From contig JAJRWR010000030.1 in the NCBI GenBank assembly GCA_024276695.1, positions 1 to 35,190 on the forward strand: a DNA stretch of 35,190 nt. The letters run 5' to 3'. This document shows, piece by piece, positions 9,175-13,029 of this stretch (position 1 is the first letter of the stretch; the number at the start of each line of letters is the position of its first letter). This stretch comes from an archaeon. Lineage in GTDB: Archaea; Thermoproteota; Nitrososphaeria; Nitrososphaerales; Nitrosopumilaceae. The notes beneath the pieces were generated by a model. The model made no database searches. It was not told the DNA's origin and was given only the letters and a program-made list of their open reading frames with translations. The position numbers and the translations under genes were made by a program.

Positions 9175-9858
9175 TTATTCGTAATTTACCGCTCTTTGTG
9201 CTTGGAATTTCTTTCTAAATAGAAATGCGACAATCAGGGTTCCAACATAGGGGGCAGTCCAATAAAGCCATAGATTTTCAAAGGCTCCAGACAATAATGC
9301 AGGTGCCAATGCTCTTGCAGGATTCATTGATGCCCCAGAAATAAAAGCCAAGAATAAAATATCTAATCCAACGATTCCTCCGATTGCAACACCACTAAAT
9401 CCTCTTAGGCCTTTTGTATATACAACATAGAATATGACACCCATAAGCATTACAGAAGCTAAAACTTCAACTGAAAAAATCAAAAATATTGAAAAATCAT
9501 AATTTGGGATATTTGTTCCAAGATTTACTTTGTCTCCAATGAATGTTAAAACAAAAAGAGAACCCAGTATTGCACCAATTATTTCTGCTATAAAATAATA
9601 TACAACTTGAATTTTTGATATATGACCCGTAATGTAATAGCCAATAGTCACTGCAGGATTAAAGTGAGCTAGAGAAATTTTTCCAAAAGAATACACACCA
9701 ATTAGTAATGCAATAAATGGGGCCACAGCTGCAAATGGAATTCCCAATTGACCATCAAAGACATTAGCATCATAAACTATGGAACCAGTCGCAAAAACTA
9801 CAAGAATAAAAGTTCCAATTAACTCTACTGTGAAAATCTGTAAATTAGAATAGGTCAT
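9175..9858 (-). CDS. aquaporin-family channel, probably arsenite/metalloid-type (AqpS-like context)
   Basis: A 227-aa MIP-family channel with about six membrane helices and both NPA boxes: AHFNPAVTIG near residue 67 and ASMNPARALAP near residue 180, the latter followed by the usual selectivity-filter arginine. MIP channels pass water, glycerol or neutral metalloid hydroxides. Its start overlaps the ArsC-like gene by 1 bp, the layout known for aqpS in some bacterial ars operons, where the channel replaces an arsenite pump. Arsenite as substrate is inference from context; water or glycerol transport is the alternative. Confidence 0.8.
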   Translation of the reverse strand: MTYSNLQIFTVELIGTFILVVFATGSIVYDANVFDGQLGIPFAAVAPFIALLIGVYSFGKISLAHFNPAVTIGYYITGHISKIQVVYYFIAEIIGAILGSLFVLTFIGDKVNLGTNIPNYDFSIFLIFSVEVLASVMLMGVIFYVVYTKGLRGFSGVAIGGIVGLDILFLAFISGASMNPARALAPALLSGAFENLWLYWTAPYVGTLIVAFLFRKKFQAQRAVNYE

Positions 9859-10265
9859 CAGTCTGCTTTCTCAAGGGATTTAATTAGGGTCATCACTTCT
9901 GATTTTATTTTATCACGAATTTTTCTGACTTCTTCAAGGGATTTTTCTTTCGGATCAGAAATATTCCAATCAAGTACATCTTTTACAAATAATGAAGGAC
10001 ATGATTTTTTATCCATACATCCCATATTGATGGTCTTAGAAGAATTTTCAATCATAAAGTTAGACAATAGTTTGGGTTGTTGATTTGCCATATCAATACC
10101 AATTTCTTTCATCACCTGAATTACAATCGAATTGAGTTGTGATGACGGAGTGGTTCCAGCACTAGAAACATTGAATCGATTTGGAGCGAATTTTCTAAAA
10201 AAAGCCTCAGCCATTTGGCTCCTACCAGCATTTTCTACGCACACAAATAGGATACTTTCAGACAT
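9858..10265 (-). CDS. arsC: arsenate reductase, LMW phosphatase-type (ArsC-like)
   Basis: A 135-aa protein of the low-molecular-weight phosphatase/thioredoxin-coupled ArsC fold. The P-loop CVENAGRSQMAEAF begins at Cys9 (C-x5-R-S). The thiol relay appears as Cys83 and Cys89 in MGCMDKKSCP, and the general-acid loop as WNISDP. In ArsC of this type three cysteines shuttle a disulfide to thioredoxin; here the second pair is spaced C-x5-C, between the C-x6-C of Staphylococcus-type and the C-x3-C of mycobacterial-type enzymes. It is divergent from arsR and overlaps the aquaporin gene by 1 bp. Confidence 0.85.
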   Translation of the reverse strand: MSESILFVCVENAGRSQMAEAFFRKFAPNRFNVSSAGTTPSSQLNSIVIQVMKEIGIDMANQQPKLLSNFMIENSSKTINMGCMDKKSCPSLFVKDVLDWNISDPKEKSLEEVRKIRDKIKSEVMTLIKSLEKAD

Positions 10266-10310
10266 TATTCATTATCATATAAATAATAGTTTATATAAAG
10301 TTAGATTGAT
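10266..10310. promoter_or_regulatory. divergent arsC/arsR promoter with inverted-repeat operator
   Basis: The 45 bp between the two start codons contain a perfect inverted repeat, ATATAAA-N6-TTTATAT, at 10277-10296. The two arms also serve as TATA boxes. For arsR on the plus strand ATATAAAT (10277-10284) predicts a start near 10306. For arsC on the minus strand TTTATATAAA (10299-10290) predicts a start near 10268. Both transcripts would be almost leaderless. A dimeric ArsR bound to the repeat would block both promoters at once (inference). Confidence 0.6.
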
Positions 10311-10610
10311 ATGAATGGGATCAGTCTCTTAAAATGTATTTGTGACGAAACACGTTTTGGAATTTTAGAGTTATTACAAAAAAACAGAGAGCTATGTGTA
10401 AATGATTTTGTGGAGAAATTACAAAAGGATCAGCCACTAGTTTCACATCATCTAAAAACATTGAAAAAATGTGGAATTGTCAAATCACGAAACGAAGGCA
10501 AAAAAGCAATGTATTCAATTTCAAATAATCAATTATCAGAATTAATTTCAGTAGTTACCAAAACAAGTAAGAAAATACCAGTTTTATGTTCAGAAAATAA
10601 TTGTTGTTAA
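10311..10610 (+). CDS. arsR: ArsR-family metalloid-responsive repressor
   Basis: A 99-aa winged-helix repressor of the ArsR/SmtB family. The recognition helix is in the QPLVSHHLKTLKKCGIV segment (residues 41-57), followed by the beta wing. Candidate metalloid ligands are Cys9, Cys11 and Cys29, the last in RELCVNDF. That segment matches the family ELCVCDL motif but lacks its second cysteine. There is also a C-terminal SENNCC tail (Cys93, Cys98, Cys99). The ligand set therefore differs from the classical pair and would have to be assembled from other cysteines. The 3' end overlaps the convergent sbtB gene by 4 bp. Confidence 0.85.
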   Translation: MNGISLLKCICDETRFGILELLQKNRELCVNDFVEKLQKDQPLVSHHLKTLKKCGIVKSRNEGKKAMYSISNNQLSELISVVTKTSKKIPVLCSENNCC

Positions 10611-10909
10611 AATTTTTCAGATCTTAATACGCCAACTTCACTGACATAAATAACGATAGCGAAATCAGCAAATAAGGTTCTAGAAATTTCTTCTACAACA
10701 TCTTGTAATTTTTCTTCACGCATAATTACTTCAACTTTGACATTTTTTTCATTTTTGAATCCCTGACCACGAATACCACGTGCACCATTACCGTCTACCT
10801 CATATGTTGTATACCCAGTGATTTCATGTTTATTTAAAATATCAATGATATTTTTTTGAGCTAAAATTTCACATGTAATTGTAAGTAATTTTACGTTGTA
10901 TAGTTTCAT
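10607..10909 (-). CDS. sbtB: SbtB-like PII-family regulator of bicarbonate transport
   Basis: A 100-aa PII-like protein. The T-loop region GYTTYEVDGNGARGIRGQGF (about residues 32-51) closely resembles the SbtB form, and the C-terminal FADFAIVIYVSEVGVLRSEKF matches the SbtB end (YISxVExLRxxKF). The cysteine-bearing R-loop extension of some cyanobacterial SbtB is absent. In cyanobacteria SbtB binds adenyl nucleotides and inhibits the SbtA transporter. Its start overlaps the sbtA stop by 4 bp, the pairing expected for the complex. Ligand and regulation in this archaeon are inference. Confidence 0.82.
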   Translation of the reverse strand: MKLYNVKLLTITCEILAQKNIIDILNKHEITGYTTYEVDGNGARGIRGQGFKNEKNVKVEVIMREEKLQDVVEEISRTLFADFAIVIYVSEVGVLRSEKF

Positions 10910-11991
10910 ACCCAGTCCTTTGCGATGTAATTGAATAAGTCTATCGATCCTTCTCCATTATGAACAAGTGTCGAGATTGTAAACATGATAGGGAGTAAGA
11001 CGATAATGTTGTATGGGAATGTAATTCCTAATGCAGATGTAATGTATAGACTTGGTTTTGCTTGAGGAATGGCATGACGCAACACAGCAGGTGCTGCAAT
11101 AAATGAAGCACTAGCCAAAAGCAGACCAAACATTACGGCGCCACCTAGGCTCAAACCCATAACAGTTGCAATAAGAACACCAATAATTCCATTGAATGTT
11201 GGCAGGATTACAGCAAATGCCGTAAGAAAAACGCCAACTTTTTTAATATCATCTAATCTTTGACCTGCAATTATTCCCATCTCAATCATAAAAATAACAA
11301 TTGCACCGGTAAACATTTCATCAAATACAATTCGGATTGAACTAAATCCTTCTTCCCCTATGATATACCCAATAACTATACTACCTAAGAGGATTACAAT
11401 TGCTTTACCAGTAATTGATTCATGTAATACTTGGGAGAGTTTTGTTTTAGTTTCTTGTAGTCCAATATCCATATCAGAAGTATCACCTTTAGTGAAGGAT
11501 TGTTTTTTCTGACGAATTTGTTTGGATACAGCCATGTTTGTCAAAAATATTGCCATGATAAAAGCAACTGGTTCTAAAACAGCTAGAATAGCTGCTAAAT
11601 ATCCTTCAGATGTTACACCTTGATTTTTGAGAAACGACAATCCAACTGAAAATGTGACAGCGCCAACTGCTCCATATGTTGATGCTAATGCATATGAATC
11701 AAAAATGTTGAATTTACCTAATCTTCGTAAAATTTGATAGTGATTTAAGGTAAACAGCAAAGACAATCCAATTGCAACTAACATTGGAATCAACATGTTC
11801 TCAAATCCTGTGTTTCTCATTTCTATTCCACCATGAAGTCCAATTGCTGCAAGAAGATATATTGGTAAAAATTCAGAAATTGCTTCAGGGATTTTTAAAT
11901 CGGATTTTATTCTAGCGGCAATTATCCCAAACAGAAAGAACAGGATTATTGGAGTAAGTAGATTTGACTGTATTAATTGTAATATTTCCAT
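10906..11991 (-). CDS. sbtA: SbtA-type sodium-dependent bicarbonate transporter
   Basis: A 361-aa integral membrane protein with about ten helices in two similar halves, separated by a charged cytoplasmic loop near residues 155-190. The N-terminal signature (KSDLKIPEAISEFLPIYLLA, then IGLHGG) is that of the SbtA family (Sbt_1). Cyanobacterial SbtA takes up bicarbonate with sodium. Ammonia-oxidising archaea fix bicarbonate by the 3-hydroxypropionate/4-hydroxybutyrate cycle, so a bicarbonate importer next to its PII-like partner fits autotrophy. Substrate is inferred from family and partner. Confidence 0.85.
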   Translation of the reverse strand: MEILQLIQSNLLTPIILFFLFGIIAARIKSDLKIPEAISEFLPIYLLAAIGLHGGIEMRNTGFENMLIPMLVAIGLSLLFTLNHYQILRRLGKFNIFDSYALASTYGAVGAVTFSVGLSFLKNQGVTSEGYLAAILAVLEPVAFIMAIFLTNMAVSKQIRQKKQSFTKGDTSDMDIGLQETKTKLSQVLHESITGKAIVILLGSIVIGYIIGEEGFSSIRIVFDEMFTGAIVIFMIEMGIIAGQRLDDIKKVGVFLTAFAVILPTFNGIIGVLIATVMGLSLGGAVMFGLLLASASFIAAPAVLRHAIPQAKPSLYITSALGITFPYNIIVLLPIMFTISTLVHNGEGSIDLFNYIAKDWV

Positions 11992-12042: not shown

Positions 12043-13029
12043 TCAAACAAACAGATCAATTAGATAAGTAAATCCAATCCCCATTGCAGCACTACCAGGA
12101 ATTGTAATAATCCATGAAAATACAATCTGTCTACTAACCTTCCACCGTACTGCACGTTTTCTTCTGGCAGCGCCTGCACCCATAATGGTTCCAGTGATTG
12201 CGTGTGTAGTACTAGCAGGAATGCCAAATATTGCAAATATTGCAAGCATCAATCCACCACCAGTTTCTGCTGCAAATCCCTGGTATGGTCGGAGTTTGGT
12301 AATTTTTACACCTAATGTTTTGATGACTTTGTATCCTCCAAAGAAGGTACCCAGTCCCATTGCAGTTGCAGCAGCAAGTATTACCCATAATGGCATCTCA
12401 AGTTCAGGAATCATTCCGGCTGAGAATAAAATTAAAACGATGATTCCCATTGTTTTTTGTCCATCATTTGCTCCATGAGTTAAAGCAAACCAAGCTGAAG
12501 AGATTATTTGTAATTTACCAAATGTTTTATTGACAGGTCCAGGTTTACGACTAGCAAATATCGTAATTATTAAGGTGGTTAACAATAAACCAAAAATTAT
12601 CCCACCAATTGGTGCAATAACAATTCCTGCAAAGACCTTTGTCAATCCACCATAAACTAATTTTTCAAATCCCAATCCTGCAATGCCGGCACCCATAATT
12701 CCTCCAACCAAAGAATGGCTGTTTGAAATAGGTAATCCGAAATAAGTACAAAGAGTACTCCAACCAATGGCTCCTGCCAATCCACCAACAATCATGTATA
12801 CTGTAATGTCATCAGGGCTAACGATTCCTTTTGCAATTGTAGTCGCAACTGCAACACCAAAAACAAAGGGTCCAATGAAATTCATTGCGGCAGATAAGCC
12901 AACAGCATGAATGGGTTTTAGAACACGTGTTCCAATAACAGTGGCAACAGAATTTGCAGAATCATTAAACCCATTTACAAAATCAAATATTAATGCAACA
13001 ATAATTGCACCTACTGCTATCTCTATCAT
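12043..13029 (-). CDS. pitA: PiT-family inorganic phosphate transporter
   Basis: A 328-aa membrane protein with the two inverted PiT signatures: FVNGFNDSANSVATVIGTR at the N-terminus and LTHGANDGQKTMGII in the second half. It also has paired SHSLVGGIMGAG and TTHAITGTIMGAG motifs. The family co-transports phosphate (or metal-phosphate) with protons or sodium. It starts 9 bp after the stop of the PhoU-like gene on the same strand, the usual Pit accessory arrangement. Confidence 0.93.
   Translation of the reverse strand: MIEIAVGAIIVALIFDFVNGFNDSANSVATVIGTRVLKPIHAVGLSAAMNFIGPFVFGVAVATTIAKGIVSPDDITVYMIVGGLAGAIGWSTLCTYFGLPISNSHSLVGGIMGAGIAGLGFEKLVYGGLTKVFAGIVIAPIGGIIFGLLLTTLIITIFASRKPGPVNKTFGKLQIISSAWFALTHGANDGQKTMGIIVLILFSAGMIPELEMPLWVILAAATAMGLGTFFGGYKVIKTLGVKITKLRPYQGFAAETGGGLMLAIFAIFGIPASTTHAITGTIMGAGAARRKRAVRWKVSRQIVFSWIITIPGSAAMGIGFTYLIDLFV

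Follow-up and report, generated by a model that had tools for sequence, protein, structure and literature searches.

A putative pumpless arsenic module with an AqpN/NIP-like channel of unusual filter in ammonia-oxidizing archaea

In the aqpS operon of Sinorhizobium meliloti, a channel of the MIP (aquaporin) family stands next to ArsR and an arsenate reductase in the place of the ArsB or Acr3 pump, and arsenite exits the cell downhill (PMC4435449, PMC6205960). The channel is the only transporter in all 18 of the 18 MIP-bearing bacterial ars operons (PMC4435449), and in Salinispora the reductase and the aquaporin-type channel are coupled within one fused protein, AqpS-ArsC (reviewed in PMC6205960). 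Channels of the AqpN type have been named from Bacteria and Archaea (PMC4245216) and reported from Nitrososphaerota (PMC11316224). For the ammonia-oxidizing archaea (AOA), a Nitrososphaera genome paper recorded an arsenic pump only in Nitrososphaera and none in the Nitrosopumilus relatives, and handled aquaporins under osmotic stress (PMC4084955); the divergent aquaporins of desert-soil AOA have been read as an adaptation to desiccation (PMC8627038). The strategy of arsenate reduction followed by arsenite leak, although known in bacteria, seems to be undescribed for AOA, and we found no description of an AOA arsC-aquaporin module in the open-access literature.

The locus analyzed here lies in a stretch of 35,190 nucleotides of a Nitrosopumilaceae genome (hereafter, the window) and consists of the following features, the last of which is context outside the operon:

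9175-9858, minus strand: MIP channel, AqpN/NIP-like, 227 aa (Pfam MIP PF00230, 140.9 bits)
9858-10265, minus strand: ArsC, LMW-phosphatase-type arsenate reductase, 135 aa (LMWPc PF01451, 71.5 bits)
10266-10310: divergent promoter/operator, the 45-bp arsR/arsC intergenic region (sequence, and comparison of 66 intergenic sequences)
10277-10296: inverted repeat ATATAAA-N6-TTTATAT
10278-10285: TATA-like box TATAAATA, 26-33 bp before the arsR ATG
10290-10299: TATA-like box TTTATATAAA, 25-34 bp before the arsC ATG
10311-10610, plus strand: ArsR/SmtB-family repressor, cysteine-rich, 99 aa (HTH_5 PF01022, 57.5 bits)
12043-13029, minus strand: PiT phosphate permease (PHO4, 292.7 bits)

The arsR gene diverges from arsC and the channel gene (hereafter, mip), and the arsC stop and the mip start have one base in common (TGATG). 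The first-pass annotation had described ArsR, ArsC and the channel as packed together with a 1-bp overlap and a shared divergent promoter, and had taken the organism to import phosphate through a PiT permease; the open reading frame coordinates and the Pfam and NCBIfam matches bear out the packing, and a PiT gene is present in the window. With arsR, arsC and mip in a single locus, the gene composition is that of a pumpless aqpS/AqpN-type ars operon, and the module is best filed, from its sequence, as an archaeal, lineage-wide, pumpless variant of the bacterial aqpS/AqpN ars operons with an unusual filter. Compared with AqpS by description, the window module is archaeal, its arsR is divergent and no arsH is seen; compared with the Salinispora fusion, reductase and channel are two genes overlapping by one base. 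Adjacent to the module, at 10607-11991, a P-II-like gene overlaps a gene for an Sbt_1 bicarbonate transporter by 4 bp, a pair that marine AOA retain next to the ars module and that resembles the SbtA-SbtB pairing of cyanobacteria.

The catalytic residues of the reductase are those of LMW-type ArsC proteins. The P-loop Cys9 and the relay cysteines Cys83 and Cys89, recognized already in the first-pass annotation, are invariant among 64 homologues, as are the P-loop arginine R15, D104 and P105, and the fold is LMWPc. The best NCBIfam match, TIGR02689, stays under its cut-off (87.7 bits against 157.6); neither the NCBIfam model for thioredoxin-type nor that for glutaredoxin-type arsenate reductases is matched above its cut-off, and the best PDB match is the arsenate reductase 3t38_A.

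The regulator belongs to the metalloregulatory helix-turn-helix family (NCBIfam HTH_metalloreg NF033788, 84.2 bits, cut-off 55). Among 42 homologues, C9, C11, C54 and C93 are invariant, and C29, C98 and C99 are mostly kept, so that the protein combines the ArsR-family winged helix with conserved cysteines, as in ArsR/SmtB sensors of As(III). The classic ArsR pair, ELCVCD, is represented in the window protein by ELCVND. The conserved cysteine set is one that fits the needs of a thiolate metalloid sensor. The sequence ATCAATttAaaTTTATATaAActaatATTTAT is common to 66 distinct arsR-arsC intergenic sequences. Spacing of TATA boxes such as that found here is expected for leaderless archaeal transcripts, and the distances on both the arsR and the arsC side match the expectation for two such transcripts. 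A single repressor dimer sitting across the divergent promoter would shut off both genes.

In the channel, the two NPA boxes claimed previously are found at residues 67-69 and 179-181, and the aromatic/arginine (ar/R) filter, with positions taken from alignments that recover the known filters of Escherichia coli AqpZ (F-H-T-R), GlpF (W-G-F-R) and OsNIP2;1 (G-S-G-R), is P47-I167-A176-R182 (P-I-A-R), for which we found no characterization in the literature. Relatives of this channel have P-I-A-R or, in one subclade, H-V-A-R. The second MIP of the same genome (contig C13) shares with the window channel and with AqpZ the MIP fold and the NPA boxes, but has the filter H-H-A-R, including the histidine that marks water channels, and belongs, like AqpZ, to a separate clade with filters of the water type. 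Membership of the window channel in the AqpZ group was rejected given that H5 is Ile167 instead of His, with the sequence comparison also against it; membership among the GlpF aquaglyceroporins was likewise rejected (P-I-A-R versus W-G-F-R; less than 30 bits to GlpF chains). The label "aquaglyceroporin," applied to the bacterial counterparts in the first-pass annotation, is accordingly inaccurate by descent for what is an AqpN/NIP-like MIP, with less than 30 bits to GlpF chains compared with 96 to NIP2;1.

Among PDB sequences, the window channel is most similar to OsNIP2;1 (Lsi1), a plant NIP metalloid channel (95.7 bits), ahead of AqpZ with about 69 at most and GlpF with about 29 at most. The two channels are alike in lacking a His at H5 and having a small LE1 residue, and differ in that OsNIP2;1, about 32% identical, has the G-S-G-R filter and takes up silicic acid in plants. 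A confident AlphaFold2 model (pLDDT 91.6) has aquaporin NIP2-1 as its best structural match (7cjs_A, Z 31.6), with AqpM and other aquaporins tied at Z of about 31; because these match equally, the fold alone cannot choose the channel type.

Phylogenetic analysis places the AOA ars-type MIPs in one clade (100/100), separate from the water-type paralogues of AOA (100/100). The careful tree puts them on the AqpN/NIP side of a split whose other side holds AqpZ and the AOA water-type paralogue (support 93/91), whereas a quick tree that contained GlpF and AQP2, with their very long branches, has them nearer to AqpZ (87), and approximately unbiased tests reject neither AOA with AqpZ (p-AU 0.18) nor AOA with the paralogue (p-AU 0.23). 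As far as can be resolved, the window channel lies outside the water-channel clade; its AqpN kinship is probable, not proven. The clustering with water channels that had been named in advance as a potential refutation is not seen, given the position on the AqpN/NIP side and the lack of the water-type His, with the alternative placements left unrejected by the AU test.

AOA aquaporins have been discussed in terms of osmotic stress or desiccation (PMC4084955, PMC8627038), an interpretation that would make the window channel an osmotic water channel. Among named NCBIfam equivalogs, aquaporin Z scores best (95.3 bits, under the cut-off of 256), which speaks for this view; the absence of His from H5, the separate water-type MIP in the same genome and the ars linkage speak against it, and we consider it very improbable. 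By its filter, the window channel falls outside the water type.

The closest bacterial sequences are those of the AqpN clade (36-43% identity), which are mostly found in ars clusters. Among the best plasmid-borne relatives, the majority of which are in arsenic clusters, Deinococcus has arsR-arsC-aquaporin, Oscillatoria combines the MIP with arsR, PstS, arsH and arsC, Calothrix with an arsenical-resistance protein and an arsenate reductase, in Priestia it is close to ArsN1, ArsR and an arsenic transporter, and in Alicyclobacillus close to arsM; Hymenobacter is the exception. The filter of the bacterial relatives is F-A-A-R in 17 of the 17 read, in contrast to P-I-A-R or H-V-A-R in the AOA channels with their own 100/100 clade; the window channel lacks F-A-A-R, a feature of the AqpN clade in these 17 members that is not established as clade-defining. 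On Alicyclobacillus and Priestia plasmids (L160-L162), an AqpN-type MIP gene lies between the gene for a radical SAM protein with an RCCLKC tail and that for a GTP-binding protein, and in two of these three loci arsinothricin-annotated genes are nearby.

Comparison of hundreds of related genomes, the check proposed in the first-pass annotation, revealed conserved arsC-mip linkage. Of the 150 best MIP matches in the family, 124 have an arsC listed within 1.2 kb, and inspection of the neighboring sequences of most of the remaining ones revealed a diverged or frame-shifted arsC alongside in 11 more, so that adjacency holds for at least 135 of these 150. In a species-wide scan of close relatives with one genome per species (79 loci, 75 with enough flank), arsC adjoins mip in 69 of the 75 informative loci, which span Nitrosopumilus, Nitrosopelagicus, Nitrosotenuis, Nitrosotalea, Nitrososphaera and Nitrosocosmicus. 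Since the same gene order recurs across the family, the arrangement is not a chance one. PiT is directly beside arsC-mip or mip at five loci (L120, L126, L132, L148, L152). In many terrestrial AOA, the order is HxlR<>arsM-arsC-mip, where arsM scores above the arsenite-methyltransferase cut-off of NCBIfam and the divergent regulator matches PF01638. This HxlR-family regulator has a conserved IPLCC motif and diverges from either arsM-arsC-mip or arsC-mip (L210:933-1310, minus strand; L197, L217, L221, L230, L238); it is a putative sensor of arsenic that does not belong to the ArsR family. Nitrosocosmicus sp. SS (L231) has a second copy of the module, which, given the in-frame stops in its MIP and the filter H-N-A-R, looks like a decaying duplicate.

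The linkage has exceptions. ArsC was detected in 158 of 220 family genomes and in 105 of 128 good ones; a MIP is present in 128 of the 128 good genomes, 23 of which lack ArsC. In one genome (G208, L082:1498-2181), the MIP remains at its syntenic position, flanked by hemL and the P-II-like gene, but arsR and arsC are missing; another locus (L101) keeps arsR and the MIP with no detectable arsC; and at L102, L103, L105 and L115-L119 the MIP has no arsC alongside, the filters at L115-L119 being P-I-A-R, P-V-A-R or H-V-A-R. The retention of the MIP without arsC in some genomes weakens the case for an exclusive arsenic role, and the channel may have a second substrate. Conceivably, it is a general small-solute channel, for ammonia, urea, glycerol or boric acid, that was later linked to arsC, with arsenite an incidental permeant. 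Along with the persistence of the MIP in the absence of arsC, the H-V-A-R subclade carries a histidine at H2, like plant TIPs, and the ammonia-permeable TIP2;1 (5i32) is among the structural matches at Z 30.7, although all aquaporins score alike. However, the linkage to arsC, arsR or arsM holds across deep divergence and in bacteria, and amo, urease and glp genes were not seen linked in the loci read; we regard this possibility as unlikely, if the strongest of the competitors.

The absence of ArsB and Acr3 from the window, reported in the first-pass annotation, extends to the whole source assembly (1.56 Mb, 41 contigs, rated 99.48% complete), where profile searches for Acr3/SBF (PF01758), ArsB (PF02040), CitMHS (PF03600) and ArsP (PF03773) gave no match and the controls did; an Acr3 pump under another ArsR elsewhere in the genome was part of the second of the observations that could have overturned the proposal. 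Because the assembly is in 41 contigs, a pump could lie in a gap. The search for a true ArsM in this genome returned only weak generic matches to arsenite methyltransferase (best E 5.6e-6). Across the family, SBF/Acr3 is found in 2 of 220 genomes; one of these matches (G095:C113), which has an arsC and an arsM of its own next to it, lies on an 8-kb contig in a 76%-complete genome, so that either the contig is foreign or the gene was acquired in a rare event.

The ArsB model matches a CitMHS/ArsB-like transporter in 38 of the 220 genomes (for example, L096, L097, L098 and L099). Its identity as ArsB was rejected: the ArsB Pfam model gives the two scanned proteins 81-89 bits, compared with 287-302 for CitMHS, and the neighbors at the two loci read are unrelated, with no ars linkage. 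Genomes without ArsC carry this transporter more often (15 of the 19 strongest; Fisher p 2e-6, uncorrected for kinship), an enrichment that, together with its presence in relatives, would suit a scenario in which ArsC and ArsR detoxify arsenate, an unrecognized pump exports arsenite and the MIP is minor. Yet, the transporter is absent from the genome of the window, and considering also the better fit of the scanned proteins to CitMHS and the lack of ars linkage at the two loci, we see little chance that this scenario is correct.

Judging from gene identity and linkage, the catalytic and sensor cysteines, promoter conservation, the contrast between filters and the absence of the standard pumps, the window module probably is a system of pumpless arsenate detoxification, in which reduction is followed by the exit of arsenite through the channel. 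The aqpS-like strategy proposed in the first-pass annotation is thus supported by the sequence, and neither computable route to its refutation succeeded. The substrate, flux direction, inducer, electron donor and co-transcription are those that we infer for the following scheme. Arsenate would enter along with phosphate, presumably through PiT, and would be reduced by ArsC via the Cys9-Cys83-Cys89 relay; uncharged As(OH)3 would then leave the cell down its own gradient through the co-transcribed AqpN/NIP-like channel. ArsR would sit on the 45-bp divergent promoter across both TATA-like boxes until released by As(III), whereupon arsR itself and arsC-mip would be switched on. A channel cannot bring internal arsenite below the outside level.

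The majority of the AOA relatives carry the three-gene arsenic module too, with arsenite most likely leaking out via the channel. More tentatively, and as a view more likely wrong than right, it may be proposed that the AOA lineage as a whole relies on a dedicated arsenite channel with an uncharacterized P-I-A-R/H-V-A-R filter, a channel whose linkage to arsC would predate the divergence of marine and soil lineages; in soil, the module would include arsM under a cysteine-bearing HxlR-family regulator, a would-be new type of arsenic sensor, and in marine forms, it would be governed by ArsR, mostly without arsM. In these terms, one of the two types of AOA aquaporins would gain a role in arsenic metabolism, as opposed to the osmotic reading (PMC4084955, PMC8627038), and the P-I-A-R channel would provide a naturally occurring variant of the filter with which metalloid selectivity can be probed. 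AOA, which import arsenate as a result of phosphate uptake in phosphate-poor water, would pay no energy cost of efflux under the reduction-plus-leak strategy and would release arsenite into the environment. These organisms are among the most abundant archaea.
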